Below, piece after piece: positions 1 to 17,905 of a stretch of 64,000 nucleotides of DNA. How positions within the stretch are numbered: position 1 is the first letter of the stretch; every line of letters begins with the position of its first letter. Under the pieces are notes generated by a model. It did no database searches, was not told the origin of the DNA, and worked only from the letters and a program-made list of their open reading frames with translations. The stretch is from Dysgonomonas sp. 25 (GTDB lineage: Bacteria > Bacteroidota > Bacteroidia > Bacteroidales > Dysgonomonadaceae): NCBI RefSeq assembly GCF_010501075.1, contig NZ_QVMN01000001.1, positions 248,001 to 312,000 on the forward strand, written 5' to 3'. The position numbers and the translations under genes were made by a program.

Positions 1-1
1 T

Positions 2-1094: not shown

Positions 1095-1143
1095 ATCAAT
1101 AGGTATTAAACAGTTATTAAACTGTTCGCCAGCCCATCAAAAA

Positions 1144-1292: not shown

Positions 1293-1318
1293 TGCGAACG
1301 TTATGTTATATATCAATA

Positions 1319-1345: not shown

Positions 1346-1399
1346 CTCAAATTTTCCTCTGCAAAGATACTGAAAGTCGGTGATATAAGCTATTATTTT

Positions 1400-1678: not shown

Positions 1679-1690
1679 AACAATAACCGA

Positions 1691-4043: not shown

Positions 4044-4066
4044 AATTGTAACTTATTGATTTGCTG

Positions 4067-4118
4067 CAAAGATGAAGGGATTTGTTTGAACAAAAACCAC
4101 AGTTTCGCCCACCTGTGG
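4067..4118 (-). promoter_or_regulatory. Candidate RteC-activated promoter of the excision-like operon
   Basis: On the minus strand, CATCTTTG (plus 4067-4074) is one base off the Bacteroidetes -7 box TAnnTTTG, and no good -33 box lies at the usual spacing. Upstream sits the palindrome CCACAG-N10-CTGTGG (4097-4118), centred about 47 bases before the predicted start. A weak promoter with an inverted repeat near -50 matches what is known of the RteC-dependent xis2c promoter of CTnDOT. The assignment is inference. Confidence 0.5.
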
Positions 4119-4130
4119 CGATATTTTTTT

Positions 4131-4167
4131 CAATAAAAAAAGGCGAAACATTGATTGCTTCGCCTTT
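4131..4167 (-). terminator. Intrinsic terminator of rteC
   Basis: On the minus strand AAAGGCGAA (plus 4159-4167), an 11-base loop and TTCGCCTTT (plus 4139-4147) are followed by a run of T. It ends rteC and separates it from the excision-like operon. The right 20-bp inverted repeat (4175-4194) lies between the rteC stop and this hairpin. Confidence 0.85.
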
Positions 4168-4174
4168 GGTAACT

Positions 4175-4194
4175 TGCCAGTACCTCGTATCGGA
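4175..4194 (-). repeat. 20-bp inverted repeat, right copy
   Basis: TGCCAGTACCTCGTATCGGA on the plus strand is the exact reverse complement of 1165-1184. It lies in the 3' untranslated region of rteC. The pair would allow inversion of, or recognition at both ends of, the roughly 3-kb HTH-primase-HTH module. Confidence 0.8.
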
Positions 4195-4204
4195 TTGATG
4201 ATTA

Positions 4205-5056
4205 TTAGTCCTCTTCTTCCATCCGCCGAAGAAGAGCCTTTTGAAGAATATCTAAATACCTTGTTCTGTTAATCTTACGTCCCTTTATTTCCATATATAT
4301 GTGATAAAAGTCCCCTAAGTCAATATTAAACATTGCTTCAAAATTTTCTGCTATTGTTTTTATATCAACAGTTCCCTTATCGAATGCACCACAAGTATCA
4401 AAGGCGTAAATCAGTTCTACAAGTCCACGTTTTGACCCCGTCCAGACCATTTGACAACAAGAACCATTATTTTTCTTTCGAAGTCCCTCATTTGTTAGCT
4501 CTTTTGTTCTATTGGTGAGATGAATTTTAAGTAATTCATTAGCTAAAATTTTTGCAACCTTGAAATCATAACTGGTGGAGAACTGTGGGTCTGAATCAAA
4601 AAAGGAATTATCTATAATTAAATGAATATCAGGTTTTCCACGAAGAAAATACTTATCGTCAAGATAACAAGCATTTGTCCGGTAGTATTGATAGAAAGTG
4701 AGATTCTGATTAAAGAAGGTAGTCAGAAAATCTAATTCCGAAACATAGTATTGTGTTTGAACATCATCGCTTCCGGTAGGGCGTTTCAACTCAATATTAT
4801 AAATGCTATTGTAATAGATTAATTTACTGCTGATTTGCGGTTTTAAATGTTTGAAGAAATATATTTCCTCTGAATTATCACTAAAATTATATTTCAATAT
4901 GAAAGACTTTAATTCAGACATTACATCTTGCAAGTAATTAATGACATTTTTACAAACATGGAGAAAGTCAGATTCGTTTAATTCGATTGTTTGAATTTCT
5001 GAATCAACATCTTGTAGTAGATTGCTGAAATAGTCTTTTATTGTTATTTCTTTCAT
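4205..5056 (-). CDS. rteC: RteC family regulator of element excision
   Basis: The 283-residue protein carries the RteC C-terminal core: MVWTGSKRGLVELIYAFDTC (from residue 203), then FDKGTVDIKTIAENFEAMFNIDLG and YHIYMEIKGRKINRTRYLD. In CTnDOT, RteC is the DNA-binding activator of the excision operon, itself controlled by the two-component pair RteA/RteB. No rteA or rteB is nearby in this window, so its inducing signal is unknown. It sits directly upstream of the Xis-like operon on the same strand, with its own terminator between, as expected for a trans-acting activator. The length is near the family norm. Confidence 0.9.
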   Translation of the reverse strand: MKEITIKDYFSNLLQDVDSEIQTIELNESDFLHVCKNVINYLQDVMSELKSFILKYNFSDNSEEIYFFKHLKPQISSKLIYYNSIYNIELKRPTGSDDVQTQYYVSELDFLTTFFNQNLTFYQYYRTNACYLDDKYFLRGKPDIHLIIDNSFFDSDPQFSTSYDFKVAKILANELLKIHLTNRTKELTNEGLRKKNNGSCCQMVWTGSKRGLVELIYAFDTCGAFDKGTVDIKTIAENFEAMFNIDLGDFYHIYMEIKGRKINRTRYLDILQKALLRRMEEED

Positions 5057-5134
5057 TGATGTTTTCTTTTAATTCCTAATAGATGTGTTCCAATTCTCTC
5101 TCTTTCATATTATTTTTATATAGGATAAAACAAT

Positions 5135-5171
5135 AAGAACCTGAATCCGTTAATAACAGTTTCAGGTTCTT
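5135..5171 (-). terminator. Intrinsic terminator ending the arsP transcript
   Basis: An 11-bp stem of AAGAACCTGAA (5135-5145) and TTCAGGTTCTT (5161-5171) with a 15-base loop. On the minus strand it is followed by ATTGTTTT. It lies 40 bases after the last small arsenic-island gene, and could also work on the plus strand. Confidence 0.8.
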
Positions 5172-5211
5172 TTCTCAAAAGTAGGTGAGCCTACATAGAA
5201 GGTATCATCTA

Positions 5212-5412
5212 TCAGCACCCACAACCACGATTAACCTGATTGGTTTGCTGCCCAGAATTATCCCCTTCTTTCTTTTCTTCTTGTTTGTCTGACACTTGTT
5301 TGTCAGTACTTTCATTTACCGGAACTTCCTCTATTTGTAGTCCACAACTACATCCTTTATTGTTAGATGCAAACAGAGAACTAAAAAATCCTTTTTTCTC
5401 TTTCTTTTCCAT
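5212..5412 (-). CDS. Small cysteine-rich protein, putative As(III)-binding
   Basis: A 66-residue, highly charged soluble protein with an amphipathic start (KKGFFSSLFAS), a KGCSCGLQIEEVP motif at residues 18-31, a low-complexity polar linker and a GCGC terminus. There is no signal peptide or membrane segment. Four cysteines arranged as two CxC pairs suggest trivalent metalloid or metal binding. It is the last gene of the transcript after arsP (18 bases away). Short proteins with this Cys-x-Cys/IEEV layout may accompany ArsP-type permeases; a role as chaperone feeding the pump is inference. Confidence 0.7.
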   Translation of the reverse strand: MEKKEKKGFFSSLFASNNKGCSCGLQIEEVPVNESTDKQVSDKQEEKKEGDNSGQQTNQVNRGCGC

Positions 5413-5430
5413 GATTTGAAACTTATTGAA

Positions 5431-6333
5431 TTAATAAAATAGATTGAAAACATACCCTGCGATAACTGCTGTAAAAAATATTACTGCCACTATCATAAAG
5501 ACCATTTTTCTTTTGAATATACCTGCAAGCATCGACATTTCGGGTATTGCCATTCCTGCACCACCAATGATTAATGCAACCACAGCACCGATACTCATAC
5601 CTTTGCCTAATAATGCCAACCCGATAGGTATTGCCGTTTCTGCCCGTATATAAAGTGGTACGCCTACGATTGCAGCAACAGGAATAGCGAAAGGATTATC
5701 AGGCCCGGCTATTTTGACTACAAAATCTTCGGGCAGATAACCGTAAATAGCAGCACCAATTCCCACCCCTATAAAGAGGTAGCCAAGAATAGGTTTCATG
5801 CTTCCCCAAGCAGCAATAAAGGATAACTTTATTTTTTCTTTAAATGGTAACTTGCGCTTACTTACAGCTTCTTCCGTATTTTCCGCTGCACTTTTAATTC
5901 TCACATTTTTCATGTACTTGATACCGCCTGTTTTCTCCAAAACATAACCGAAAGCAACAGCACTGATGAAGGCTACGATGAAATACATAATGGCAGCTTT
6001 TATCCCGACCATAACGCCAAGCATTCCTATGATAATCGGATTAAGTAAAGGTGATGCGATAAGGAATGACATGGTAGAACCGAATGGCACGCCTGCATTA
6101 AGCAAACCTACTGTCATAGGAATTGTTGAACAGGCGCAAAATGGGGTTAGTGAACCAAAAACTGCTCCGAGGATGTTACCTGTAATTCCTTTGCCGGATA
6201 GTTTTTTTTGAATTTTTTCTGCCGGAATGTACATAAGAATTATTTCAACTATCATACTTATAAGCATGAATAAGACGAGTAACTCCGCAGAGATAAACAA
6301 GAAATACTTGATTGTTTCTATTAACGTGTTCAT
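5431..6333 (-). CDS. arsP: ArsP-family organoarsenical/permease (DUF318)
   Basis: The 300-residue membrane protein has about eight hydrophobic segments in two repeats. The family signature LTPFCACSTIP (about residues 62-72) holds the cysteines essential in ArsP, and the second repeat has VGVPLYIRAETAIPIG. ArsP pumps trivalent methylated and aromatic arsenicals out of the cell. It follows the MerT-like gene by 27 bases and shares the ArsR1-type operator at 6933 through it. With the ArsM gene in the same island, efflux of trivalent methylarsenicals is a consistent role. A less specific permease function cannot be excluded. Confidence 0.85.
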   Translation of the reverse strand: MNTLIETIKYFLFISAELLVLFMLISMIVEIILMYIPAEKIQKKLSGKGITGNILGAVFGSLTPFCACSTIPMTVGLLNAGVPFGSTMSFLIASPLLNPIIIGMLGVMVGIKAAIMYFIVAFISAVAFGYVLEKTGGIKYMKNVRIKSAAENTEEAVSKRKLPFKEKIKLSFIAAWGSMKPILGYLFIGVGIGAAIYGYLPEDFVVKIAGPDNPFAIPVAAIVGVPLYIRAETAIPIGLALLGKGMSIGAVVALIIGGAGMAIPEMSMLAGIFKRKMVFMIVAVIFFTAVIAGYVFNLFY

Positions 6334-6360
6334 ATTTAAAATTTATGTAGATTATTTTAT

Positions 6361-6891
6361 TTATTGAGGGCAACAACTGGGTGCTTTTTGCTCCTTTTGC
6401 GTTTCAGTAGTGGTTGGCTGTGTTGCCGGACAGCAACCTGAATTATCCTGAATCTGTATCAGTTCTTCCGTTGGGCAACACCCGCCATTAGGTGAGTTTA
6501 CGGTTTTACTTTCATTAAAGCCGATTACTAACATGGCAACAATGATTACAGCACCTGTCCAAAGAAATATTTTTTGGAATAGCCGGGATTTTGGTTTACC
6601 TGTTTTTTCTGATTCGCTTGCACAGCAGCTATTTTCTTTCTCTGTCCCACAACAACTGCCTTTCTTCTTGAAATAGACCTGATAAAAGCCAAACAGTAAT
6701 GATAGAATTGCAAACCCGATAAACCACCATCGGTATTCGGCAAAAAAACTAAGCTGTGAAGCACCAATGCCTAATGCAGCAAGGATACCCGCTAATATTG
6801 GTAGTCCACAGCAACCTACTAACCCAAGCATAGCAAGAATAGAGGATAATACCCCCATAATTGTTGTCCAAATTGTTTTTGATTTACTCAT
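6361..6891 (-). CDS. MerT-like membrane protein with multiple Cys-Cys pairs
   Basis: A 176-residue protein. Three membrane segments are predicted: about 10-45, which contains the MerT-like GLVGCCGLPILAG, about 52-70, and about 108-125. Between and after them lie five more vicinal pairs: GSCCG, NSCCA, GGCCP, SGCCP and the terminal SCCPQ. MerT uses a vicinal pair in its first helix to take up Hg(II); here the surplus of CC pairs and the arsenic context point to As(III) or organoarsenical handling. It is the first gene of a transcript with arsP and the 66-residue protein, under the operator at 6933-6948. The direction of transport is unknown. Confidence 0.72.
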   Translation of the reverse strand: MSKSKTIWTTIMGVLSSILAMLGLVGCCGLPILAGILAALGIGASQLSFFAEYRWWFIGFAILSLLFGFYQVYFKKKGSCCGTEKENSCCASESEKTGKPKSRLFQKIFLWTGAVIIVAMLVIGFNESKTVNSPNGGCCPTEELIQIQDNSGCCPATQPTTTETQKEQKAPSCCPQ

Positions 6892-6932
6892 TGTTTTCTG
6901 TATTATTTTATTGTTTATCTCATTAATCCTAT

Positions 6933-6948
6933 ATCGTAAATATACGAT
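6933..6948. promoter_or_regulatory. ArsR1-type operator before the MerT-like gene
   Basis: ATCGTAAATATACGAT, a 16-base near-palindrome, recurs exactly at 8413-8428 and with one change (ATCGC) at 7289 and 8461. It lies 42 bases before the start codon of the MerT-like gene. Recurrence ahead of every local transcript identifies it as the local ArsR site; the binding itself is inferred. Confidence 0.8.
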
Positions 6949-6966
6949 AATATAGGGTAAAAAATT

Positions 6967-7269
6967 TTATTCAAAAAGCTCTTTGAAAAATTGTTTTGCA
7001 ATAGTATAATGTTCTTTACTAATACAATACCGAACCTTCGGTGGAGTAATTTCGCCTTCAATCAATCCTGCATTTTTTAGTTCTTTCAAATGCTGTGAAA
7101 CGGTAGATTGAGCAATAGGCAAATCTTCGACTATATCACCACAATAGCAATAGTCCTGCTTTGAAAGAAGCCTTAAAATGGCAACCCTTGCCGGATGGCT
7201 TAATGCTTTAGCATAACGTGCTATTGCCACATCCTTTTCATCAAATTGTTCTGCTTTACTAAATGCCAT
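6967..7269 (-). CDS. arsR: ArsR-family metalloregulatory repressor (first copy)
   Basis: The 100-residue protein has the ArsR winged-helix fold: KALSHPARVAILRLLSKQ, QSTVSQHLKELKNAGLIEGEITPPKVRYCI. A CYC pair at residues 41-43 and C62-proximal residues give the As(III) sensor near the start of the recognition domain, where classic ArsR has CVCDLC. It would repress until As(III) binding releases DNA. Its own promoter carries an operator copy (7289-7304), so it is autoregulated, and three more copies sit before neighbouring transcripts. It is about half identical by eye to the second ArsR at 14650, but their operators differ. Confidence 0.92.
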   Translation of the reverse strand: MAFSKAEQFDEKDVAIARYAKALSHPARVAILRLLSKQDYCYCGDIVEDLPIAQSTVSQHLKELKNAGLIEGEITPPKVRYCISKEHYTIAKQFFKELFE

Positions 7270-7288
7270 ATCTGTTACTTTTAAATCA

Positions 7289-7304
7289 ATCGCAAATATA
7301 CGAT
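7289..7304 (-). promoter_or_regulatory. ArsR1 operator overlapping the arsR promoter
   Basis: ATCGCAAATATACGAT on the plus strand. Read on the minus strand it contains TATATTTG, a perfect TAnnTTTG -7 box, so repressor binding would directly occlude sigma factor. It lies 20 bases before the arsR start codon. Confidence 0.8.
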
Positions 7305-7324
7305 GGATATTTTGATTAAAAAAA

Positions 7325-7852
7325 TTAGAAGCTATAAAAAAAACCGAAACTTAAACTATTTCCGCTAAGGTCTAAGCCCCAGCCTTTTTCTCCCAAAGCA
7401 TTTATATCGCTATCTGTATCCCTGTATCCTAAGAATCCAAAATGGGCTGCTAAACTAAACCTATCAGTCAGACCAATTATCATGCCCGGTTTCACTCCAA
7501 CCTGCCAAGCGGTTTCAGATTTACGACCTGTCGGCTTGTCATTAGATAAACCGAATGTTCCATCCATAAACAGCCTTACTTTCCCTGCTGTAAAGTAAGA
7601 ATAACGAGCGTATGGATTTAACGTGAAAGAATTAATTTTTAAGTCTTCGTGTTTAGTGTATTGATAACCGATACCAATTCCAAGATACCATTTACTTGAG
7701 AGGCTGTAACCTATATCCGGCGTTATGGATAAGGTTGTTTTATCTGCACTGTTATTGTTCCAAAAGCCCAAAGAGCCACCAAGACAAAAATCTTGTGCAT
7801 TAGCTATGCTTACCGCAAAGACAGCTATAATCACCATGACAATTTTCTTCAT
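7325..7852 (-). CDS. Outer membrane beta-barrel protein
   Basis: A 175-residue protein with a clean signal peptide (MKKIVMVIIAVFAVSIANAQ) and then alternating beta strands with aromatic girdle residues, ending in FGFFYSF, the aromatic C-terminus expected of an outer membrane barrel of about eight strands. It follows the thioredoxin-fold gene by 70 bases and is probably in the same ArsR1-controlled transcript. A small barrel inside an arsenic regulon could affect metalloid permeability or envelope stability; the function is unknown. Confidence 0.75.
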   Translation of the reverse strand: MKKIVMVIIAVFAVSIANAQDFCLGGSLGFWNNNSADKTTLSITPDIGYSLSSKWYLGIGIGYQYTKHEDLKINSFTLNPYARYSYFTAGKVRLFMDGTFGLSNDKPTGRKSETAWQVGVKPGMIIGLTDRFSLAAHFGFLGYRDTDSDINALGEKGWGLDLSGNSLSFGFFYSF

Positions 7853-7922
7853 CGTTTTCTTTTTAATTATTAATAATTATTGCAAAATGAAACTCCCAAA
7901 CTTGCTGGGTAACTTTAGATTA

Positions 7923-8381
7923 TTAGCGGGAACAACAGCCACTTTGGACAACCTTCTTTGATGCAGCAATAAGGTCGGATTCTTTAGGAACTCCTGTGAA
8001 TTGCCCCGTTACAAAACCTTGTTTGTTTATCACGATGGTAACAGGTTCTTTCAAGGGTTCTGTTATTTTAAGTGTTTTCAGTAGGTTTTCGTCAGCCTTA
8101 TTATCTGCATCCACTTCAATCGTTTCGACTTTGCCGGATAATGCTTTTTGAGATTCTTTGCATACAGATAAAGCTTTTTCCTTATCCTTTAATCCCTGTT
8201 TGCTAATCACAACAAAAATCGCTTTGCCCTGTTTCAATACAGAAACAATTTCATCTTGTTTTGTAACTTGACTGCTATTTGTAGAAGTCATTTTTTCTTG
8301 CGCATAACTGCCAGTGACAGTCATAAGTGAAAGCAAAAATATTGCAATGCTTTCACTGATTTTCAATTTTCTTTTTTCCAT
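7923..8381 (-). CDS. Secreted thioredoxin-fold protein with GCC tail
   Basis: A 152-residue protein with a signal peptide (about 1-28, ending GSYAQ) followed by a thioredoxin-like alpha/beta domain: AIFVVISKQG, VETIEVDADN, and the cis-proline-like EPVTIVINKQGFV. The usual CxxC active site is missing; only one internal cysteine (LSVCKES) and the terminal SGCCSR remain. It is therefore unlikely to be an ordinary thioredoxin, and the CC tail may bind As(III) in the periplasm. Its promoter holds two ArsR1-type operators (8413, 8461). Role inferred from context only. Confidence 0.7.
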   Translation of the reverse strand: MEKRKLKISESIAIFLLSLMTVTGSYAQEKMTSTNSSQVTKQDEIVSVLKQGKAIFVVISKQGLKDKEKALSVCKESQKALSGKVETIEVDADNKADENLLKTLKITEPLKEPVTIVINKQGFVTGQFTGVPKESDLIAASKKVVQSGCCSR

Positions 8382-8412
8382 ATCACTATATAATTAACTT
8401 ATTTTATCGCAT

Positions 8413-8476
8413 ATCGTAAATATACGATGATTTGTAATAAAAAAATATCACTCGAAATCAATCGCAAATATACGAT
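8413..8476 (-). promoter_or_regulatory. Twin ArsR1 operators and promoter of the thioredoxin-fold gene
   Basis: Two 16-base operators, ATCGTAAATATACGAT (8413-8428) and ATCGCAAATATACGAT (8461-8476), lie 48 bases start to start. The distal one contains TATATTTG on the minus strand, a perfect -7 box, and the proximal one falls in the early transcribed region. Such a pair could give tighter repression or looping. No gene occupies 8,382-8,615. Confidence 0.78.
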
Positions 8477-8615
8477 GAAAGATTTGATTCGCCAAACAGG
8501 AAGAGAAAAAGATGATGTCCTTTTCTCTTTATCCCTGTCTTATAGCATTATATATTTTTTCTTTCGCTTGACAGTAGTAAAACTGCCGTCTGAAATCACC
8601 TTCACTTTATAATCC

Positions 8616-8942
8616 TTACCCTTTAATCATAGTAAGCAACATCTTAAATTGCTTGCTTGCATACAAAGCATGAGGAATACCCGCAGGCATAATTATAGAC
8701 TGACCAGTAACCAGCATCAAGGGTTTACCGTTTATGGAAATTTCAGCTTCTCCGTCTAAAATTTCTACCATAGCATCAAATGGGGCGGTATGCTCGCTTA
8801 GTCCCTGTCCTTTGTCGAAAGAAAACAGGGTAATGTTGCCTGCTTCATTCTTCAATACTTGTTTGCTGATTACTCCACCAGTTGAGTATTCAACCATTTC
8901 TGCCATATTCAGTATGACTCCTTTTTCAAATAATTCATTCAT
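8616..8942 (-). CDS. Cupin domain protein
   Basis: A 108-residue single-domain cupin. It has motif 1 (LSEHTAPFDAMVEILDGEAEISINGK) and motif 2 (GQSIIMPAGIPHAL), each with metal-ligand candidates His/Glu. Small cupins of this type are common in Bacteroidetes arsenic and redox clusters, but their substrate is unknown. It is the last gene of the ArsR2-controlled transcript, 12 bases after arsM. A role in metalloid chemistry is inference from position. Confidence 0.8.
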   Translation of the reverse strand: MNELFEKGVILNMAEMVEYSTGGVISKQVLKNEAGNITLFSFDKGQGLSEHTAPFDAMVEILDGEAEISINGKPLMLVTGQSIIMPAGIPHALYASKQFKMLLTMIKG

Positions 8943-8954
8943 AACTATATTCTT

Positions 8955-9782
8955 TTAACAACATCCACCGCATGAACACCCCCCAGAGTTTTTTCTTCCG
9001 GTAACTGTTATGGAAACAATCGCATTCACGGTTTTGAAAGCATTTATTTCATCTTCGTTAAGATACTTTTCAAGAATTTCATCGGGAATGGTAATTTCTT
9101 TTTCCTTACAAATGATAATTTCTGCAAATCCAGCTTCTTTTATTTTCTCAAGATATTGAGCTTTTGGAATTGCTCCCGATACACAACCGACGTACATTTC
9201 TGCTGCATGTTTCAACTTTTCGGGTATTTCTTCATTGAGAACGACATCCGATATGCAAAAATGTCCCCCGGTCTTTAACACACGGTATATTTCATGGAAT
9301 ATCCGGTCTTTGGAAGGTAGTAAATTCAGTACGCAGTTACTTATAACCACATCGGCACGACCTGCACTTACGGGCATATCTTCAATATCTCCCTGCCGAA
9401 AACTCACGTTTTGTATTCCACGTTTCTTTGCATTGGCTTTAGCCTTTTCTATCATGGGTTCTGAAAAGTCAATACCAATGACTTTTCCTTCATCACCAAC
9501 TTCTGCCTGTGCAATAAAACAATCATTCCCAGCACCTGAACCGAGGTCAATAACAGTATTTCCTTTCTCTATACCTGCATATTGGGTAGGCAATCCACAG
9601 CCAAGTCCGAGGTCAGCATCTTCGTTGTATCCTTTGAGCGTTGAATAGTCATCGCTCATAATATTATAGACTTCTTTTGTAGGACTGCACCCACAACAAC
9701 AGCCTGTTTCTTTTCCTTGCAAAGCAATATCGCTATATTTCCGTTTTACTATTTCTTTTAGCTTATCATTACTATTATTCAT
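8955..9782 (-). CDS. arsM: Arsenite S-adenosylmethionine methyltransferase
   Basis: A 275-residue class I methyltransferase with SAM motif DLGSGAGNDCFIA (about 79-91), IGIDFSEPM, and ISNCVLNLLPSKDR. The As(III)-binding cysteines of ArsM are present: Cys62 in LGCGLPTQYA and Cys200 in YVGCVSGAIP, with further cysteines in the N-terminal GCCCGCS and the tail GGCSCGGCC. ArsM methylates As(III) to mono-, di- and trimethylarsenicals. It lies between arsC (14 bases upstream) and the cupin gene. The trivalent products are toxic but are substrates of the ArsP encoded nearby. Confidence 0.93.
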   Translation of the reverse strand: MNNSNDKLKEIVKRKYSDIALQGKETGCCCGCSPTKEVYNIMSDDYSTLKGYNEDADLGLGCGLPTQYAGIEKGNTVIDLGSGAGNDCFIAQAEVGDEGKVIGIDFSEPMIEKAKANAKKRGIQNVSFRQGDIEDMPVSAGRADVVISNCVLNLLPSKDRIFHEIYRVLKTGGHFCISDVVLNEEIPEKLKHAAEMYVGCVSGAIPKAQYLEKIKEAGFAEIIICKEKEITIPDEILEKYLNEDEINAFKTVNAIVSITVTGRKNSGGCSCGGCC

Positions 9783-9796
9783 AACTTATTGCTGTT

Positions 9797-10255
9797 TTAT
9801 TCCCATTCGCCGGAACAGGCACATTTGGGCATTTCTTTCTTTAATATCTGTGTAATGTAAAATTCGGAAAACTTATTCTTTATCTCAAACCTTGTCCGAT
9901 AAAACGGGTCTTTGATAAATTCCGGTGTACCTTTTGCTCTTGATGGGTCACTAAATCCGAAGTGCAGACGTTGTGTCACTTCGCCTGTAAATACAGGGCA
10001 GGTTTCATTGGCTTCATCACAAACGGTTATTACATAATCCCATACCTGACCAATATATTCATTCACATTATGCGGTTTGTGATTGCTAATGTCAATTCCT
10101 ACTTCTGCCATTACTTCAATAGCCATCGGATTTACTTCATCAGCAGGTTTTGTACCTGCTGAAAAGACTTCGATTTCTTCGTCAAACGATTGCAGAAAGC
10201 CATGAGCCATTTGGCTGCGACAGCTATTTCCTGTACATAGAATCAATATTTTCAT
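9797..10255 (-). CDS. arsC: Arsenate reductase, low-molecular-weight phosphatase type
   Basis: The 152-residue protein starts with the CX5R P-loop (C7-T-G-N-S-C-R13) right after the first strand. It has TVCDEANETCPVF, the thioredoxin-coupled ArsC resolving region, and FSDPSRAKGTPE with the general-acid aspartate. It reduces As(V) to As(III) so that ACR3 can export it. The C-terminal KCACSGEWE adds another CxC. It lies 12 bases after the large permease gene, in the ArsR2 transcript. Confidence 0.92.
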   Translation of the reverse strand: MKILILCTGNSCRSQMAHGFLQSFDEEIEVFSAGTKPADEVNPMAIEVMAEVGIDISNHKPHNVNEYIGQVWDYVITVCDEANETCPVFTGEVTQRLHFGFSDPSRAKGTPEFIKDPFYRTRFEIKNKFSEFYITQILKKEMPKCACSGEWE

Positions 10256-10267
10256 TGCATTGTATTC

Positions 10268-11611
10268 TTAAAAAAATGTTCCATAAACAAGACCGGAGAT
10301 AGTTGCCATGATAATGACCAGTGTTACATATACAACCGTCTTTTGCGTACCCATCACACCACGAATAACAAGCATATTAGGCAGGGAAAGTGAAGGGCCT
10401 GCCAGTAGCAAAGCCAATGCAGGGCCTTTTCCCATTCCGGAAGCGAGTAAGCCTTGAATAATAGGCACTTCGGTCAGCGTTGCAAAATACATAAATGCCC
10501 CTGTAAAACTGGCAAAGAAGTTCGATAGCAAGGAGTTCCCACCTACCGCCCACTCAATCCATTCGTTCGGTATAACACCCGGAATGGCTGTATTGTCGTG
10601 TGTAGAACCGAGCAGGAAACCTGCCGTAACCACACCGATAGCGAGCAAGGGCATTATTTGTTTGGCAAATCCCCACGCCGAAAGTGTCCATTCCCGGTTT
10701 TCATCATCCCGTTTATCAAAGAGAGTAACGAGAGATAGAGCAGCAATACCAACAATCATCGGAACAAGCGGGACTAACTTCGGGTTTGGTATGAATTGGT
10801 AAGCCAGAAACGCAGATAATCCTGTCGCCAAAACACCTGTCAGCACCCATTGCCATTTAATTTTCAATATAGTTACGAGGGAATAAGCGAGTATAAGAGA
10901 AAGCGCACCTGTTATATGCCATTTATAAGTAAATATGTAGAACCATATACTTGAAGTATCATCGGCTGCAGGCGCACCCCAATTCGCAAAGACAAGAATA
11001 AATACCAGTGTAAAGAAATGGAGCATAGTTTGCGACATAGGACGTTTAGCAGGTGGAGGAACAATATTCATTTGTTCTTCTTTTTTGGCTTTTTCTTCTT
11101 TTCGATAGATAAAAGACATAATCAGTCCGATAACAACTGAAAATGTAATTGCCCCAATCATGCGGGCAACACCCATTTCCACCCCAAGAATACGCCATGT
11201 GAGAATAATGGATAAAATGCTAATTGCAGGTCCTGAATACAGGAACGCAATGGCTGGTCCTAATCCTGCTCCACGTTTATAGATGCTTGTAAACAAGGGT
11301 AATATAGTACAGGAACATACCGCCAAAATAGCACCAGAAACAGCGGCAACCGTATAGGACAGCCATTTCTTAGCATTTGCTCCGAAATATTTCAAAACTG
11401 CCCCCTGACTGATAAAAACGGCTATCACACCTGCAATGAAAAAGGCAGGTAGAAGACACATGACAACGTGTTCTTGTGCGTACCACTTCGACAAGTCGAG
11501 TGTTGCATCAATCGCTGTCATAAACCGTTCACTGCCTAAGGGTAGGAAAAATACTCCGGCGAAAATGACAACCATCCAAAGAAGGATTTTCAACTCTTTT
11601 TTAGTTTCCAT
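10268..11611 (-). CDS. Large permease related to ArsP (DUF318/YraQ family)
   Basis: The 447-residue protein has ten or more membrane segments. The first half carries AVCSCTILPLF (about 97-107), the CSC motif equivalent to the ArsP cysteine motif, and the second has EVPIIQGLLASGMG and LAGPSLSLPNM repeats. It is longer than ArsP and resembles permeases found in many Bacteroidetes arsenic clusters, often adjacent to the small thioredoxin-like protein encoded just upstream here. It probably exports a metalloid species, possibly an organoarsenical. It lies 11 bases after arsE. Confidence 0.82.
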   Translation of the reverse strand: METKKELKILLWMVVIFAGVFFLPLGSERFMTAIDATLDLSKWYAQEHVVMCLLPAFFIAGVIAVFISQGAVLKYFGANAKKWLSYTVAAVSGAILAVCSCTILPLFTSIYKRGAGLGPAIAFLYSGPAISILSIILTWRILGVEMGVARMIGAITFSVVIGLIMSFIYRKEEKAKKEEQMNIVPPPAKRPMSQTMLHFFTLVFILVFANWGAPAADDTSSIWFYIFTYKWHITGALSLILAYSLVTILKIKWQWVLTGVLATGLSAFLAYQFIPNPKLVPLVPMIVGIAALSLVTLFDKRDDENREWTLSAWGFAKQIMPLLAIGVVTAGFLLGSTHDNTAIPGVIPNEWIEWAVGGNSLLSNFFASFTGAFMYFATLTEVPIIQGLLASGMGKGPALALLLAGPSLSLPNMLVIRGVMGTQKTVVYVTLVIIMATISGLVYGTFF

Positions 11612-11622
11612 GTGTAGCTTTA

Positions 11623-11856
11623 TTATACTCCCAACAGTTGGCGGATTTCGCTTTCGGAAGGAACGTGACCTTTGATTTTTACTTCACCGTCCACAACTAT
11701 GCCCGGCAAGGTCATTACATTATATTTCATGATTTCCATAATATCTTCCTGTTTGGACAATTTTATATCTAATCCGTTATCTTCAATTACTTTCTTTACT
11801 GTTTCGTAGGTTGTTTTACATTTGGCACAACCTGTACCTAATACAATGATTTCCAT
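11623..11856 (-). CDS. arsE: Small thioredoxin-like redox protein (ArsE-like)
   Basis: The start chosen is the ATG at 11856, giving 77 residues; a longer frame from 11937 runs into arsG and adds a segment not seen in the family. The protein begins with MEIIVLGTGCAKCKTTYETV, where CAKC is the redox centre, and has the cis-proline loop TLPGIVVDGEV. Small redox-active disulfide proteins of this type act with membrane permeases, and the order with arsF and arsG matches the arsEFG set described in Shewanella putrefaciens for aromatic arsenicals. The arsE name rests on that synteny. Confidence 0.78.
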   Translation of the reverse strand: MEIIVLGTGCAKCKTTYETVKKVIEDNGLDIKLSKQEDIMEIMKYNVMTLPGIVVDGEVKIKGHVPSESEIRQLLGV

Positions 11857-11867
11857 ATTTGTAATTA

Positions 11868-12569
11868 TTAAATTCCTGTTATTATATAATAGATTCCGAC
11901 AACAATAAATATCGCTGCCACAATCCATTTGAACCATTTTTGAAAAACACTCATTTTGTTATAGAATTTCCCCACGTTACTCACGCTATATGCCAAAAGC
12001 CATGCGATGATGATAACGGGTAATCCCGTTGCAATAGCAAATACAGGTGGAAGCAGTAATCCTGATGGGCTGGCAATCGTCATCGGGATTAATCCGCCGA
12101 AATACAAAACCCCGCTATAAGGGCAGAAAGCAAGCGCAAAAAGTAATCCCAGTAAGAACGCATCGAGGTAGGTTTTCTTTCCTTCTTTGTTTTCTATCTT
12201 TGAAGTTAGCTTATTCATTCCCGGAAGCTTTATTTTGATAATGTCCAACATAAATATTCCGATAATAACCAATGCTATTCCCAGCCACATCCCACCTACG
12301 TTTTGCAGTAATTTGGCTACCTGAAACTGGCTTGCTCCGAAATAGAAAATCAATCCGAGTACCGTGTAGGTAAACATTCTACCAAGCGTATAGAATACAC
12401 CATTGAACATTACCCTACGTTTATCGCCTATATCTTTACTCAAGTAAGCCGTAGCAGTAATATTGGTTGCCAACGGGCAAGGGCTGATTGCGGTCATTAT
12501 TCCCAAGAGAAATGCTGTCAATAATGGAAAGTTAGACCCATCGACAAGGTTTTGTAAAAACTCCATCAT
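11868..12569 (-). CDS. arsG: ArsG-like aromatic arsenical efflux permease (CcdA/DsbD-type)
   Basis: A 233-residue protein with six to seven membrane segments. GIMTAISPCPLATNITATAYL in the first helix and FALAFCPYSGVLYFGGL in the fourth carry the paired membrane cysteines of the CcdA/DsbD fold. Members assigned to the ArsG family export trivalent aromatic aminobenzyl-type arsenicals. It overlaps arsF by 4 bases (ATGA), a sign of translational coupling, and arsE follows. Electron transfer across the membrane is the other plausible function for this fold. Confidence 0.8.
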   Translation of the reverse strand: MMEFLQNLVDGSNFPLLTAFLLGIMTAISPCPLATNITATAYLSKDIGDKRRVMFNGVFYTLGRMFTYTVLGLIFYFGASQFQVAKLLQNVGGMWLGIALVIIGIFMLDIIKIKLPGMNKLTSKIENKEGKKTYLDAFLLGLLFALAFCPYSGVLYFGGLIPMTIASPSGLLLPPVFAIATGLPVIIIAWLLAYSVSNVGKFYNKMSVFQKWFKWIVAAIFIVVGIYYIITGI

Positions 12570-12994
12570 AACCTTTTATCGACTTCGGTTTTGATAAGGT
12601 CGGTAAGGTTTTCAGGACTATTCAAAGCGTTGGCAAATGCTTTGTCGGTAATATCTATGGAATTGTCCCCTTTAGAAACAATGAGGGCATTCCATGTTAC
12701 TTCGTATTTTTCTACAAGTGAAGCATTTTGCTCTTCATCGGTTTTTACTTCAATGAATTTTACACTGGGATTGTCCGCATAAAGTTCTTTTATGGTCTTT
12801 TCTGTCACATCACCCACTGCAATGCAGGTTTTACAACGTTGTTTGCCGTGGAAATAGTAAACGTTCACAGTAGAAGCATCCGTTACTTGTTCTTTAGCTT
12901 CTGTTCCAGTAGTTTGTCCGTTGTTCTTTTGTGTATTACCACCGCAGGCAACTAACAAAGTGGCGAAAAATACGATTAAAATACTCTTTTTCAT
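12566..12994 (-). CDS. arsF: ArsF-like lipoprotein with thioredoxin-like CxxC
   Basis: The 142-residue protein has a lipoprotein signal (LLVACGGN, lipid on Cys17), a polar linker, then a thioredoxin-like domain beginning VNVYYFHGKQRCKTCIAVG with CKTC as redox centre. It has the NPSVKFIEVKTDEEQN strand typical of the ArsF/nitrophenyl-compound reductase-subunit family. It would sit on the envelope side and work with ArsG and ArsE in reducing nitroaromatic arsenicals. It lies between acr3 and arsG in the same transcript. Confidence 0.8.
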   Translation of the reverse strand: MKKSILIVFFATLLVACGGNTQKNNGQTTGTEAKEQVTDASTVNVYYFHGKQRCKTCIAVGDVTEKTIKELYADNPSVKFIEVKTDEEQNASLVEKYEVTWNALIVSKGDNSIDITDKAFANALNSPENLTDLIKTEVDKRL

Positions 12995-13025
12995 TTGATT
13001 GTCTTTTTATTGGTTTGTACTATGT

Positions 13026-14060
13026 TTATTTATAATATTTCTTCCGAAGCCAAAATGCTAAGTTTACCAACAGGATTAATACCGGGACTTCAACCAACGG
13101 CCCGACTACTCCGGCAAAGGCTTGTCCGCTATGTAATCCAAATACGCCGATTGCTACTGCGATAGCCAGTTCAAAGTTATTTCCGGTAGCAGTGAAAGCG
13201 ATGGAAGCATTTTTATCGTAAGAAGCACCCATCCACTTACCTGCGAAGAAACTAAGCAGGAACATTACGACAAAGTAGATAAGTAACGGTATAGCTATAC
13301 GAACTACATCCATTGGTATTTGTACAATCAGTTCACCTTTCAGGCTGAACATAAGAATGATTGTAAATAACAGTGCGATTAAGGTTATCGGGGATATTTT
13401 CGGGATAAACTTTTCCTTATACCATTGTTCGCCTTTCAATTTCACTAATATAAGTCGGCTCAATATACCCATTAGGAAAGGAATACCTAAGTAGATGGCA
13501 ACTGTTTCGGCAATCGTACCGATAGAAATATCAACGATAGCCCCTTCAAACCCGAAGAGGGGAGGAAGCTTAGTAATAAATAACCAAGCGTAGAAACTGT
13601 AAAAGAATACCTGAAAGATACTGTTCAGGGCTACTAAACCAGCACCGTATTCCGTATTTCCTTCCGCCAAGTCATTCCACACAAGAACCATCGCTATACA
13701 CCGTGCTAATCCGATAAGGATTACACCTACCATATATTCCGGGTAATCATGTAAGAAGATGATGGCAAGTAAAAACATTAATATCGGCCCGATAATCCAA
13801 TTCAGGATTAACGAGACTGATAATATTTTTACGTCCTTGAAAACCTTCGGTAATTGTTTATAATCGACTTTTGCCAATGGCGGATACATCATTAAGATTA
13901 AACCGATGGCTAAAGGGATGTTTGTAGTTCCACTGGATAATGAATCTATCGTAGTGCTGAACGATGGGAAAAAGTAACCCAGTCCAACTCCGATAGCCAT
14001 TGCCAAGAATATCCAAAGAGTGAGATTCTTATCTAAGAAACTCATTTTTTTCTTACTCAT
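13026..14060 (-). CDS. acr3: ACR3 family arsenite efflux permease
   Basis: The start at 14060 ([18 protein letters not shown]) gives 344 residues, the usual ACR3 length; a longer frame extends into arsN and is not used. Ten hydrophobic segments are visible. The conserved [10 protein letters not shown] segment with the key cysteine in helix 4 and the [17 protein letters not shown] motif in helix 9 are intact. ACR3 exports As(III) using the proton gradient. It overlaps the arsN stop by 8 bases. Confidence 0.94.
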
Positions 14061-14568
14061 TGCCTTCTGATTTTTTATTATTGAAAATAAGCAGCCAATG
14101 TCCGACATCCCGCCATTTGTCAAACTTCCATCCGATTTCTTTCATGTGAGAAGATTGCTTAAAACCAAATTTCTCATGTAACTTCACGCTTCCTTCATTT
14201 GGGATGCAGATTCCGGCAATTAACACATGAAGGTTTTCCCTATCTATGTTTTGGAATAAATGTTCGTACAGCGTAGAACCCAGCCCTTTCCCTGTATAGT
14301 CTTTATCTAAATAGATGGTAACTTCTTTCGTAGAAGAGTAAGCACATCTGCCGTTCCATTTATGGATGTAGTAATAGCCCACTACTTTGCCTTCAATTTC
14401 ACCTACATAATAAGGAAAGCCGGAATCAATAATTTCATTGATTCTTTCTTTCATTTCAGTTTCAGGCACAGGGGTTGTTTCAAACGTTACAGCCGTATTC
14501 TCAACGTAGTAGTTGTAAATCTCACAAATCCTACGGGAATCTTCTAATTTCACTTTTCTAATCAGCAT
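14053..14568 (-). CDS. arsN: GNAT acetyltransferase, ArsN/phosphinothricin acetyltransferase-like
   Basis: A 171-residue GNAT enzyme of the Pat family: [33 protein letters not shown] at the N-terminus, acetyl-CoA loop [18 protein letters not shown], and [20 protein letters not shown]. ArsN1 enzymes of this family acetylate the amino group of arsinothricin, an organoarsenical glutamate analogue, and phosphinothricin. It is the first gene after arsR in the transcript, behind two operator-like palindromes. The substrate is inferred from the arsenic context. Confidence 0.83.
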
Positions 14569-14589
14569 CCTATTTCTAATTTATTACAA

Positions 14590-14630
14590 TCGTACATTTG
14601 CGAATAGTGCGTATTTCGTAGATGTACGAA
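14590..14630. promoter_or_regulatory. Two ArsR2-type operator palindromes before arsN
   Basis: TCGTACATTTGCGAA (14590-14604) and TTCGTAGATGTACGAA (14615-14630) resemble the palindrome at 15004 (GTTCGCAAACATACGAAC). They lie between the arsR stop and the arsN start. Neither has a perfect leftward -7 box, though TACATTTG on the plus strand would fit one. They may be secondary ArsR2 sites that block read-through. Confidence 0.6.
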
Positions 14631-14649
14631 TATACAACATAAAAAAACA

Positions 14650-14988
14650 CTAATTTTGAGTATCACAACAACTGTCTGCAACTTCTACTTCGGTCAATAA
14701 AGCTTCAAATAACTTTTTCGCTAAAGACCAGTTTTTCTTATTAATACAATACTTAACAGAAGGCAATGTAATTTCGCCCTGTATCAAACCTGCATCTTTC
14801 AGTTCTTTCAAGTGTTGAGACAGCGTACTTTTTGCCACAGGCAAAATTTCCGACATATCTCCATGATAACAACAAGTCTGACTTGCCAATAATTGTAATA
14901 TGGCAATTCGGACTGGATGGGAAAGTGCTTTGGCAAAACGTGCCATTTGCTCCTGTTCAACTGTATATCCCTTTTTTGCTTTTTTCAT
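14650..14988 (-). CDS. arsR: ArsR-family metalloregulatory repressor (second copy)
   Basis: I choose ATG at 14988 (112 residues, MKKAKKGYTVEQ). The upstream ATG at 15015 lies inside the -7 box of the only good promoter, so it cannot be transcribed from there. The fold is standard ArsR: KALSHPVRIAILQLLASQTCCYHGD with a vicinal CC at residues 39-40, then KSTLSQHLKELKDAGLIQGEI. The tail DSCCDTQN adds a second CC. It heads the long leftward transcript arsN-acr3-arsFGE-permease-arsC-arsM-cupin and represses itself through 15004-15021. Confidence 0.9.
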   Translation of the reverse strand: MKKAKKGYTVEQEQMARFAKALSHPVRIAILQLLASQTCCYHGDMSEILPVAKSTLSQHLKELKDAGLIQGEITLPSVKYCINKKNWSLAKKLFEALLTEVEVADSCCDTQN

Positions 14989-15003
14989 CTTCTTTGTTTT
15001 ATT

Positions 15004-15040
15004 GTTCGCAAACATACGAACTATTTTTCAAACCACCAAA
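15004..15040 (-). promoter_or_regulatory. ArsR2 operator and promoter
   Basis: On the minus strand, TTTG (plus 15037-15040), 20 bases, TATGTTTG (plus 15009-15016): a full match to the Bacteroidetes promoter. The -7 box sits inside the palindrome GTTCG-CAAACATA-CGAAC (15004-15021). Transcription should begin near 15002, just before the chosen arsR start. Confidence 0.82.
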
Positions 15041-15082
15041 CATTATTCAGAAATTTAGTGCAAGATGAAATCCGCATGAATA

Positions 15083-15125
15083 ATTTAATGTAACCACCAT
15101 TAAGTTAATGGTGGTTACATTAAAT
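15083..15125. repeat. Near-perfect palindrome with 21-bp arms
   Basis: Arm 15083-15103 (ATTTAATGTAACCACCATTAA) is exactly complementary to 15105-15125 around a single central G. It is too tight for an RNA hairpin loop without fraying and has no U-tract. It lies about 60 bases beyond the divergent side of the arsR promoter. It could be a recombinase, replication-terminus or dimeric regulator site. Confidence 0.85.
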
Positions 15126-15268
15126 GAGATAAGCCTAAAGTAATACTGTCTTTATTCACAAAATCAAAGGCTTTGGAATATTACCTATGCTGGGTCATCA
15201 TTACAAGTTTGGAAAAAACTACCGCTTTTATTAGAAAAGGCGGTAAAATAATCCCGCTATCATTGTCC

Positions 15269-15314
15269 AGTGCAAGGTGCAAGTATCTATATAGATAAGC
15301 TTGCACCTTGCACT
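15269..15314. repeat. Nested inverted repeat
   Basis: AGTGCAAGGTGCAAG (15269-15283) and CTTGCACCTTGCACT (15300-15314) are perfect 15-bp arms. The spacer starts with a second perfect palindrome, TATCTATATAGATA (15284-15297). Each arm also contains a tandem GTGCAAG/GTGCAAG-like half-repeat (GTGCAAGGTGCAAG), so it may bind several protein subunits. It lies just before a strong rightward promoter. Confidence 0.8.
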
Positions 15315-15341
15315 AAGGCTAATACATTGAAGGCTAAATAT

Positions 15342-15372
15342 TTTGTAAACATGAAAATTATATGTATCTTTG
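15342..15372 (+). promoter_or_regulatory. Rightward promoter of the candidate small RNA
   Basis: TTTG (15342-15345), 19 bases, TATCTTTG (15365-15372): a complete Bacteroidetes promoter. No CDS follows on this strand; a strong terminator lies about 200 bases downstream. The box also resembles the CTnDOT integration core GTANNTTTGC (9 of 10). Confidence 0.75.
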
Positions 15373-15377
15373 AACCC

Positions 15378-15609
15378 AAGATATATGCAGAAGTGCATAG
15401 GTCAAAGGTGGACAAATAGGGGTTATTAAATTTGTGCCTATTTCGTTACCGATAATAAGTTTGGGAAAGTTAAAGCATTGACTTATACGCATATCCGGGG
15501 AAAAGGTTCATGTACCTCTCTCTCCGCAAACAAGGCTGAAAGTCAATAGTTTGCGAAACAAGCACCCAATTTTACACCCAAGAATGTAAAGTTGGGTGTT
15601 TTTGTTTTG
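15378..15609 (+). ncRNA. Candidate free-standing small RNA of about 230 nt
   Basis: A promoter ending at 15372 and an intrinsic terminator ending near 15609 define a transcript with no convincing ORF. The predicted RNA can form the hairpins TATGCA-gaag-TGCATA (15384-15399), AAATAGG/CCTATTT (15414-15443) and CGCAAAC/GTTTGCG (15525-15555), before the terminator stem. It lies between the arsenic island and the AIPR gene, convergent with the latter. I do not recognise it as tmRNA, SRP RNA or RNase P. The 5' and 3' ends do not pair as in 6S RNA. A Bacteroidales-specific RNA family is possible. Confidence 0.5.
15560..15609 (+). terminator. Strong intrinsic terminator of the candidate small RNA
   Basis: CACCCAATTTTACA (15563-15576) pairs with TGTAAAGTTGGGTG (15585-15598): 14 bp with one G-U pair and an 8-base loop, extended outward by three more pairs, then TTTTTGTTTT. 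Confidence 0.85.
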
Positions 15610-15654: not shown

Positions 15655-15683
15655 TAAAAAAGGGAGATTAATTTATCTCCCTT
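15655..15683 (-). terminator. Intrinsic terminator of the AIPR gene
   Basis: On the minus strand AAGGGAGAT, a six-base loop, ATCTCCCTT and then TTTTT. It lies 33 bases after the AIPR gene stop and faces the small-RNA terminator, so the two convergent units are insulated. Confidence 0.85.
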
Positions 15684-15715: not shown

Positions 15716-17701
15716 TTATTCGAAATTAACATCGACAGCTAACAACTGACCTGATTTAGGATTAGTAGATACCCTATATGATACAAGTTTGCCTTCTGAA
15801 TTGAATAGATTTAATCCTTTAGCAGAATTAGAATGAAAAAATACATTGTTCGGTTTTCTTTCAATAAAGCCACAATACTTTCCAAATTTATCCTTTATAA
15901 TCTTTACGATTTTTCCTTTGTATCTAAAATCAACATCATCAACTAAGTCAGTAACATGTTGATTGTTTTTCCTTACTCTCTTCAACAGCAATAATGTGAA
16001 GTCTTTATTATCTTTAATTCCATGAGGACTTTTGTGAAGTTCTTTCTCCCAATGCTCTCTAGTTTTATCAAATATATCAATTGATTCAACAAACTTAGCT
16101 AATGTTTTGTCATCGCTTTTAAGCACATTTAGAATCAATCTAGAATGTTCATCAACCATTTGCTCCGAGTTAATATTAGGACTTTTTCCCGCAATTAATT
16201 CTCTAAAAATCATCATTAAATGGTATTTATAAGTATAGTGTTTTGGCTTATCTAACTTATTCTTTCTAAACAACTTCTCGAGTTTGTAAAATGTCAAACA
16301 AGAGGCAAAATAAGGGAGTTTACTTTGGTAATCCTTAAACAGTATATTAGAGTAAGTATCAAGCAATTTAGATTCATGCCTATGTGATAAATGTGGCTCG
16401 TTAATAAACATTGATACAAATGAATGTACTATGATTCTAAAGTTCAATTTTTGATATTGTGTTATTGACGGATTATGGTCATATTGTTTGGATCTTCTTT
16501 CGTAATAGAATCTTTCATACTCAGGAGATAGTGCATTAATAACATCTTCAAGCTCTTTGTGGAATTTTTTTGTAGTCTCAAAGGCTTCATCCAGCACTAT
16601 GTTTTGTCTATTAGTACCCCTAACTACCTGATTTGTAATTTCAATATCTTGAGTTGAAATCAACTTAATTACTAGTGGAACGGTATTGCTTTCTTCTACA
16701 TTAAAGATAACATGACTTGTTTGACAACCATTCACTATTTGGGGATTTTTTATGGTAATCTGCCTATTGCTGGGGGTATATTTTTCGCAAACAATGGTAA
16801 TGCCATTGTTCAATAAAGCAAACTTTTCAGGCTCTTCTTTTATGGTTCTACCTATTTCAGTATTTATATTGTTATCTCCTTGAAAATCACGGACATTATC
16901 ATCAAATAGCGATTTTCGGATAATACCTTCATCTGTTGATAATAACTTCTTTAATTCACTTGCATAGCATAACAGCATGCATGAATTATCAACTTTATCT
17001 ACAGAAGTTAATGGCATGGTATCAATAGAGTTTAAGACAACCTCAAAATTATTTTCATTAGAATCAATTATCCCTTTGAATCCATCAATGTCGATGAAAT
17101 GTATTACAGGTTCTTTATATGTGTTTAAGCTATTGACATCATCTTTAAATTGTTCCGCAAGAGCTAATTGATGCTTGCTGTTATGCCACTTGCCCATAGC
17201 GACATAGTATAAGCGTACATTAGGATTATCTTCCCATTTATACACGGCTTCTTCACTTATTAAAAAGTCCTTTATCTTAATGAGTGATTTTATTTCGGGA
17301 CTATGAGGTTGCCTTTGCTTTTCAGATAAAAATTCACGAACCCCATCCGCAAAGTTATTAAACTCTCCTTTGTCAAAATCAGACTTGTATTTTGATTGTA
17401 TAAAGATAAATTCGACTGACACTCGTGGAAATCTTTTAACAAGATCTTTTGCTTCTGCTAAATCTCGAATAAGTAAACCATTCAACTTTATAGCAATACC
17501 ATCAATTCCCATGTCATGTGTTCCACCGACATTTACTTTTTCCAAAAGTTCGTTATCTCCATTAAATGCATCTGGCTGATGAGAAGATAATATAACATAA
17601 TTAACATATTTCTCGAAAGCATTTCCATCTGCAATATCATTCAATTCTAATTGCTCCCGAAATTTCTTAAATTTCGCATTAATAATTGGCTCTAGATTCA
17701 T
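15716..17701 (-). CDS. AIPR family protein with nuclease-like N-terminus and cold-shock-like C-terminus
   Basis: A 661-residue protein in three parts. Residues about 20-125 look like a PD-(D/E)xK nuclease: E30 (FEKYV), D67 (GIDGIAI), and Q102-S-K104 (FIQSK). The AIPR (abortive infection phage resistance) core follows, with KFALLNNGITIVCE (about 293-306) and IKNPQIVNGCQTSHVIF (about 317-333). Residues about 593-661 resemble a cold-shock/OB domain: GKIVKII, FGKYCGFIE, NVFFHSNS. The gene is visibly more AT-rich than maeB beside it and stands alone with its own terminator. Phage defence is inferred from the family; the nucleic-acid-binding tail is unusual. Confidence 0.85.
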   Translation of the reverse strand: MNLEPIINAKFKKFREQLELNDIADGNAFEKYVNYVILSSHQPDAFNGDNELLEKVNVGGTHDMGIDGIAIKLNGLLIRDLAEAKDLVKRFPRVSVEFIFIQSKYKSDFDKGEFNNFADGVREFLSEKQRQPHSPEIKSLIKIKDFLISEEAVYKWEDNPNVRLYYVAMGKWHNSKHQLALAEQFKDDVNSLNTYKEPVIHFIDIDGFKGIIDSNENNFEVVLNSIDTMPLTSVDKVDNSCMLLCYASELKKLLSTDEGIIRKSLFDDNVRDFQGDNNINTEIGRTIKEEPEKFALLNNGITIVCEKYTPSNRQITIKNPQIVNGCQTSHVIFNVEESNTVPLVIKLISTQDIEITNQVVRGTNRQNIVLDEAFETTKKFHKELEDVINALSPEYERFYYERRSKQYDHNPSITQYQKLNFRIIVHSFVSMFINEPHLSHRHESKLLDTYSNILFKDYQSKLPYFASCLTFYKLEKLFRKNKLDKPKHYTYKYHLMMIFRELIAGKSPNINSEQMVDEHSRLILNVLKSDDKTLAKFVESIDIFDKTREHWEKELHKSPHGIKDNKDFTLLLLKRVRKNNQHVTDLVDDVDFRYKGKIVKIIKDKFGKYCGFIERKPNNVFFHSNSAKGLNLFNSEGKLVSYRVSTNPKSGQLLAVDVNFE

Positions 17702-17782
17702 GAGTGTTTATTTTATTGTTAATTTCCTCCCAAAAATACTAAATATTTCCGAAACAGCCTGATTTACATCCCTAAACCTTTA

Positions 17783-17905
17783 TTTTTGCCCATTTCCGAC
17801 TTCTGTATAAACTTTATTCCTATTGATTCCTGAAACTCTTTGTATTTCTGCCTCTCTCCGCTCTTATTTAAAACATTATAAGCAGCCTAATGGCTGCTTT
17901 TTTTA
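17783..17905 (+). other. Possible short rightward transcript with terminator
   Basis: TATTTTTG at 17783-17790 fits a -7 box, though without a clear -33 element. At 17880-17899 AAGCAGCC-taat-GGCTGCTT is followed by TTTTTATT. No ORF lies between. The terminator U-tract points rightward, so it is not an obvious maeB terminator, although maeB ends at 17929 on the other strand. It could be a roughly 110-nt RNA or just a bidirectional terminator. Confidence 0.35.

Follow-up and report, generated by a model that had tools for sequence, protein, structure and literature searches.

The closest described relatives of the protein analysed here form the AbiU1/AIPR family (PF10592), whose founder is found in Lactococcus lactis and which appears as AbiU in PADLOC, where it is counted among defence systems. 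According to the available portion of PMC3985639, lactococcal AbiU is made up of two genes, abiU1 and abiU2, whereas the gene studied here is solo. In CnuB of type I CoCoNuT systems, a cold-shock-like domain (OB folds) is likewise part of a putative defence protein that is believed to target RNA; CnuB carries a McrB-type GTPase, whereas our protein is a nuclease-AIPR chain, and the main text of that paper, in its accessible part, makes no mention of AIPR (PMC11090510). SspE, BrxU and GmrSD also combine a ParB-like domain and a nuclease in one chain, as far as the available text of PMC10952713 and PMC13251355 describes them, but unlike our protein they have an HNH-type nuclease (DUF1524) and a DGQQR motif and are without the AIPR core. 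MzaE of the MZA system has the AIPR core in common with our protein, which matched it weakly in PADLOC and stayed below the cut-off of the NCBIfam equivalog (35 bits versus 1050). A fusion of AIPR with a cold-shock domain was not found in the literature searched, whose coverage was partial, so its absence from print is not proven.

The gene lies in a stretch of 64,000 nucleotides from Dysgonomonas sp. 25, here called the window. Its features, numbered from the first letter of the window except for the first line, are:

C11:248001-312000, the window in its own genome, Dysgonomonas sp. 25
15716..17701, minus strand, AbiU/AIPR-family gene with a C-terminal cold-shock domain, 661 aa, ATG start
17048..17677, minus strand, residues 9-218, predicted PD-(D/E)xK nuclease-fold head with E30, D67, Q102 and K104 (conservation and FokI/MspJI fold match)
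16583..16999, minus strand, residues 235-373, AIPR core (NNGIT, NGCQT, TNRQ), ParB/sulfiredoxin-like in the predicted model (Pfam and fold matches)
15962..16576, minus strand, residues 376-580, mostly helical region (AlphaFold2 secondary structure), followed by a low-confidence linker at 581-590
15722..15916, minus strand, residues 596-660, divergent cold-shock domain with five predicted strands (profiles; strands at low pLDDT)
15660..15683, strand not given, terminator-like stem beyond the stop of the gene (direct reading and scan)

Over its full length the protein matched a single Pfam family at E <= 1, AIPR (residues 266-521, 2.4e-43, 149.4 bits versus a gathering score of 25), and the PADLOC AbiU model matched it near full-length (residues 5-547, 9.5e-106), so that both models place it in the AbiU1/AIPR family, as had been predicted. 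It has the same head and core residues as its relatives and differs by the extra C-terminal cold-shock domain. A PDB search with the full-length protein returned one match at E 1.1, equivalent to chance, and a search with the profile of alignment A3, from which one relative (L041) was left out, gave three at E 0.14-0.16, also taken as chance. The full AlphaFold2 model, built from a 41-row alignment, reached a mean pLDDT of 83.4 and a pTM of 0.74. The gene had been described as AT-rich, single and equipped with its own terminator. In line with this, its G+C content is 31.4% versus 41.4% for the window; a terminator-like stem (GGGAGAT/ATCTCCC) followed by six T stands directly 3' of the stop when read on the strand of the gene; and no ORF of at least 60 aa lies wholly within the flanking gaps, 17702-17928 towards maeB and 15069-15715 towards the ars-type side. 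The scan, which found 5 terminator-like sites versus 1.2 expected, placed this stem (15660-15683) on the plus strand alone. Since no ORF of that size lies in the gaps, we place the gene product in the AbiU1 protein family and not in the two-gene system. The scan gave no promoter evidence, because 12 promoter-like sites were found versus 13.2 expected, and the one Rfam match in 14000-20000 (E 0.97) was rejected, being under its gathering score. Judged from sequence and predicted structure, the gene most likely encodes an AbiU (AIPR) family nuclease that is mobile and directed against phage, with an added C-terminal cold-shock-type nucleic-acid-binding domain.

We propose that this is a single-protein anti-phage effector within the AbiU1/AIPR family, spread by horizontal transfer. 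The PD-(D/E)xK domain at its N-terminus, for which fold and active-site residues were computed, would cut nucleic acid. The ParB/sulfiredoxin-like AIPR core would act as a gate and keep the nuclease in check until it has bound a ligand, nucleotide or nucleic acid. The cold-shock domain, fused in some lineages only, would bind RNA or DNA that phage infection exposes in single-stranded form, and this binding would either bring the enzyme to its target or release the gate. Phage or host nucleic acid would then be destroyed and the infection aborted, an outcome suggested by the link of the family to abortive infection and by the context of the gene. Such a single-chain sensor and effector is the best mechanism that we can offer, and we hold the chances for and against it to be evenly balanced. 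A fuller version seems to us rather improbable: AbiU-CSD as a recognise-switch-cut chain, in which a cold-shock reader of single-stranded phage nucleic acid is coupled to a nucleotide- or ligand-gated ParB-like AIPR core and a FokI-like head, would run parallel to SspE and GmrSD, differing from them in its PD-(D/E)xK head and in a reader of RNA or single-stranded DNA that can be exchanged.

The head had been recognised from an E30...D67...Q102-x-K104 arrangement, the positions of which proved right: in the 41-row alignment, window protein included, E30, D67 and Q102 are identical in 41 rows and K104 in 39, and in a 17-row alignment all four are invariant. Comparison of residues 1-218 of the model (head pLDDT 75-93 in 10-residue blocks, AlphaFold2) with structures among Foldseek's 1000 best chains gave FokI as the top match (Z 9.9, rmsd 3.2, 139 aligned) and MspJI as the second (Z 8.3, rmsd 4.4, 136 aligned), followed by Can2, McrBC and Card1 at Z 5.2-5.7, with unrelated rows (CD38, small GTPases, azoreductases) at Z 4.7 or below. 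The PD-(D/E)xK fold anticipated for the N-terminus was thus found in the predicted model. Foldseek itself listed nothing at E <= 0.001 for the model against the PDB, the sequence profile of the head had 0 matches in the PDB, and Pfam detected no nuclease in residues 1-133 alone. We conclude, from motif conservation and predicted fold together, that the head is a PD-(D/E)xK fold with an intact active site, which would make it a nuclease. The four residues are found together in 78 of 104 AIPR proteins (101 of the 104 distinct), and several distant AIPR proteins are without them, indicating that the head is a feature of AbiU that fades in remote AIPR branches; a nuclease-like head is therefore present as predicted but general in AbiU proteins and not special to this one. 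An N-terminal HEPN domain, with which AIPR proteins are described in the available part of PMC3506569, was considered and rejected for this head, since both the residue motif and the predicted fold are those of PD-(D/E)xK.

The AIPR core motifs noted in the original prediction are borne out by the Pfam match over residues 266-521. N299, G325, Q327 and N364 occur in 103 of the 104 AIPR proteins, the remaining row being a gap. The first Foldseek match of the model was a pNOB8-like ParB-N domain (E 0.029, probability 0.77). Residues 235-373 of the model aligned with ParB, Noc and sulfiredoxin structures at Z 5.1-6.9, one ParB row at 3.8, and SspE and BrxU stood among the weaker fold matches of the model (Z 5.3 and 4.2, rmsd 15.9 and 13.1), all of them below Z 8, where a match may reflect a common arrangement only. 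The sequence profile of the core, compared by hhalign with DUF262 (10 proteins of the genus, E 0.27) and with DndB (2 proteins, E 0.063), gave nothing significant, and the core has NGCQT in place of DGQQR, without the arginine of that motif. The resemblance of the core to ParB/sulfiredoxin folds is thus suggestive only, and AIPR as a ParB-like switch is a lead, because the profile comparison is not significant and the DGQQR arginine is missing. The predicted fold could tie AIPR to the domains that serve SspE and GmrSD as nucleotide switches, a connection that sequence profiles do not confirm. A link between the N-terminal domain of DndB and AIPR has been drawn before (PMC3506569, in its accessible part).

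The same observations bear on the main rival to the single-chain mechanism with a sensing tail, namely that sensing, whether of a nucleotide, modified base or phage protein, falls to the AIPR core, with the tail only anchoring the protein on RNA or DNA or tuning it. The near-invariance of the four core residues and the ParB/Noc/sulfiredoxin-like matches speak for such a role, as does SspE, whose nuclease is switched by the GTPase activity of DUF262 (PMC13251355, in the part available), but the missing DGQQR arginine, the insignificant comparison with DUF262 and DndB and the low Z range speak against it. Taking in the distribution of the tail given below, we regard a sensing core as possible but rather improbable.

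The preferred reading assigns recognition to the tail. FGKYCGFIE, starting at residue 606, and NVFFH, starting at residue 619, had been read as cold-shock signatures; both are present, and sequence profiles identify the tail as of cold-shock type. Among the seven window-clade tails the mean column identity is 51%. Their profile has 24 PDB matches up to E 10, and 22 of these belong to the cold-shock, Unr/CSDE1 or Y-box type (best 1.2e-10). Used alone, the tail of the window protein had five matches: two to Unr cold-shock chains, at 7.2e-4 and 0.023, and three to unrelated proteins (E 0.49 to 1). A five-tail profile that includes the tail of L071, a relative on a viral contig, matched mostly cold-shock chains (best 2.3e-9), helped by the canonical L071 row. 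The Pfam cold-shock model had no match in the window tail at E <= 10, so a scan with curated models misses the domain; with the same model, the tails of L026, L027, L002 and L008 stayed under the cut-off (E 1.2e-4 to 0.091), those of L001 and L025 had no match, and those of the cousins L009 (2.1e-16) and L028 (1.5e-11) exceeded it, with L071 reaching 7.7e-20. When the two types of tail were aligned with each other by hhalign, the match was weak (E 0.0082, probability 4.8). AlphaFold models gave the tail five strands at low confidence (pLDDT 43-54 in 10-residue blocks over residues 591-661 of the full model, mean 49.8 when modelled alone), and a Foldseek search with this low-confidence model, in which the first cold-shock match ranked 34th at E 3.4, was uninformative. 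On its sequence profiles, the tail is a divergent cold-shock domain.

Of the RNP motifs, the window tail keeps G-F-I (in KYCGFI) and V-F-x-H (VFFH), and several stacking aromatics are replaced; the aromatics that we take to be canonical for cold-shock stacking (W8, F15 and F30 in CspB numbering) are absent. With RNP residues partly kept and stacking aromatics replaced, binding of nucleic acid by the tail is plausible. These replacements, which affect several canonical stacking residues across the window clade, together with the change of the RNP2 histidine to Asp in L008 and L025, could also mean that the tail has degenerated and serves structure or dimerization, without nucleic-acid binding. 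We consider this unlikely, as the GFI and VFFH-type RNP residues are kept in the window protein and its near relatives and the tails of the cousins L009, L028 and L071 are near-canonical. The PADLOC model CSD_V matched the tails of L071 (3.8e-15) and L009 (6.6e-12) and gave no match to the tail of the window protein. We take CSD_V to be the cold-shock protein of type V retrons, and thus a module of another defence system.

To see how far the tail is conserved among AIPR homologues had been put forward as a check, and the answer was divided: 10 of the 104 AIPR proteins, in two clades, carry it, and in the other 94, which include three proteins cut before the C-terminus (L088, L118 and L126), none was seen, while the head is family-wide. 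The relatives were drawn from genomes, plasmids, phages and viral contigs; the 67 viral loci are all in the tail count, 45 of them in the tree, from which incomplete or identical proteins were omitted, and 38 in alignment A4, with 7 near-duplicates omitted. A model made from the ten tails found those ten among the 104 proteins, the best other protein scoring 0.033, and leave-one-out models, for which the window protein, L001 and L002 were omitted together, recovered every tail with E 1.9e-9 or better; among the remaining proteins the best score was 0.11. The plasmid search with L071 gave 912 records, from which fusions were not counted, since a cold-shock match alone could admit a record; a scan of viral contigs with the window protein alone as query gave 5 candidate stretches and no relative. 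Mapped on a tree of 63 core sequences, the presence of the tail calls for two or more gains or losses. By these sequence comparisons the cold-shock tail is an uncommon, lineage-specific add-on, and its absence from the 94 proteins implies that it is not essential to the basic activity of the family, which also counts in favour of the core as the sensor. The natural contrast between tailed and untailed proteins offers a direct test of whether the tail sets the trigger.

The placement of the gene adds four features to those listed above:

1..15527, strand not given, right part of a 45-kb integrase-bearing conjugative element at tRNA-Ser(TGA), of which the window holds the right third
15515..15527, plus strand, att-like core CCTCTCTCTCCGC, bounding the 45-kb element on its right and the AbiU unit on its left, identical in sequence to the 3' end of tRNA-Ser
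17764..17852, minus strand, Mob_Pre-type relaxase remnant, 89 bases, 3' end of the gene (alignment to a longer gene in Dysgonomonas sp. 511, L004:4478-5938)
17851..17861, plus strand, att-like core CCTCTCTCCGC, a shorter copy of the core that bounds the AbiU unit on its right

An exact pattern search found the 13-base core CCTCTCTCTCCGC twice in the genome, at C11:218632-218644, the 3' end of tRNA-Ser(TGA), and at window positions 15515-15527; ARAGORN found no tRNA within the window, the tRNA-Ser lying to its left. Between the two copies are genes for an integrase, TraG, TraJ, TraM, a MobA-type relaxase and a topoisomerase. The 45-kb element (C11:218559-263527) has CTnDOT-type Tra proteins, and its cargo looks, by eye, arsenic-related. 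The AIPR gene sits just outside this element, bounded by CCTCTCTCTCCGC and CCTCTCTCCGC, and of the relaxase gene only the last 89 bases are left, cut at the core. The 2.3-kb unit at 15515-17861, with one gene, a relaxase stub and two att-like cores, is probably the remnant of a second, mobilizable element that sits in tandem with the 45-kb one at the same site. The original prediction had put the gene on the edge of an integrative element; the mobile context stands, and the position is more precisely that of this 2.3-kb remnant next to the conjugative element. The core GCGGAGAGAG (as read on that strand) was absent within 700 bases of all 25 further malic-enzyme loci in the genus that have a 3' flank, and an empty site beside maeB was consequently not recovered.

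Mobility was further borne out by Dysgonomonas sp. 511 (L003, L004), where a copy with 99.5% DNA identity directly follows a relaxase gene of Mob_Pre type (the L004 protein matches Pfam Mob_Pre at 2e-21) and is accompanied by primase-like and ATPase genes; the 13-base core is found downstream of the gene there as well (L139). In the malic-enzyme protein the two genomes share 75% identity at best, so the AIPR gene has moved recently. In eleven other regions (L001, L002, L025, L071, L148-L152 and two pieces from sp. 511), the only neighbours shared were integrase-, excisionase- and transposase-like ORFs, the latter two named by eye. HamA/HamB (Hachiman) genes are close to the tailed gene in L002, integrases stand beside L150, L151 and L152, the last of which also has AbiEii, and L025 is a plasmid record; around the tail-bearing L001, L148 and L149, no clear mobile or defence neighbour was seen by eye in the ORF lists. 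That mobilizable or integrative units and a plasmid carry the gene or tailed relatives of it, and phage and viral-contig records mostly tail-less ones, could indicate that the protein serves the element, in stability or competition between elements, and not the host, phage defence being secondary. We think this improbable given that the literature ties the family to phage resistance and that the L002 gene is close to Hachiman genes, and retain an anti-phage effector as the preferred reading.

Within the genus, matches were found in the genome of sp. 25 itself, in G024 (near-identical) and in G010 (weak and partial). At E <= 1e-20 the protein was matched in 10 of 395 genomes of a phylum sample and 5 of 393 of an order sample, its own genome being counted in both, and a housekeeping role was rejected on this sparse spread. 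Sequence immediately to the left of the core, at about 15380-15530 of the window, was matched in L140-L142 over 26 to 33 bases (88-100%) and in L138 over about 146 bases (71%), in each case ending at the same core; these partial counterparts are perhaps the ends of related elements in other genomes of the genus. The sp. 511 gene appears interrupted at about residue 150, both contigs ending inside it (L003 1-100 and L004 6449-6536), and the contig ends are unrelated and, by eye, inverted-repeat-like, which suggests an insertion sequence. Just beyond the end of the gene, a transposase-like ORF was noted by eye at L003:1742-2965.
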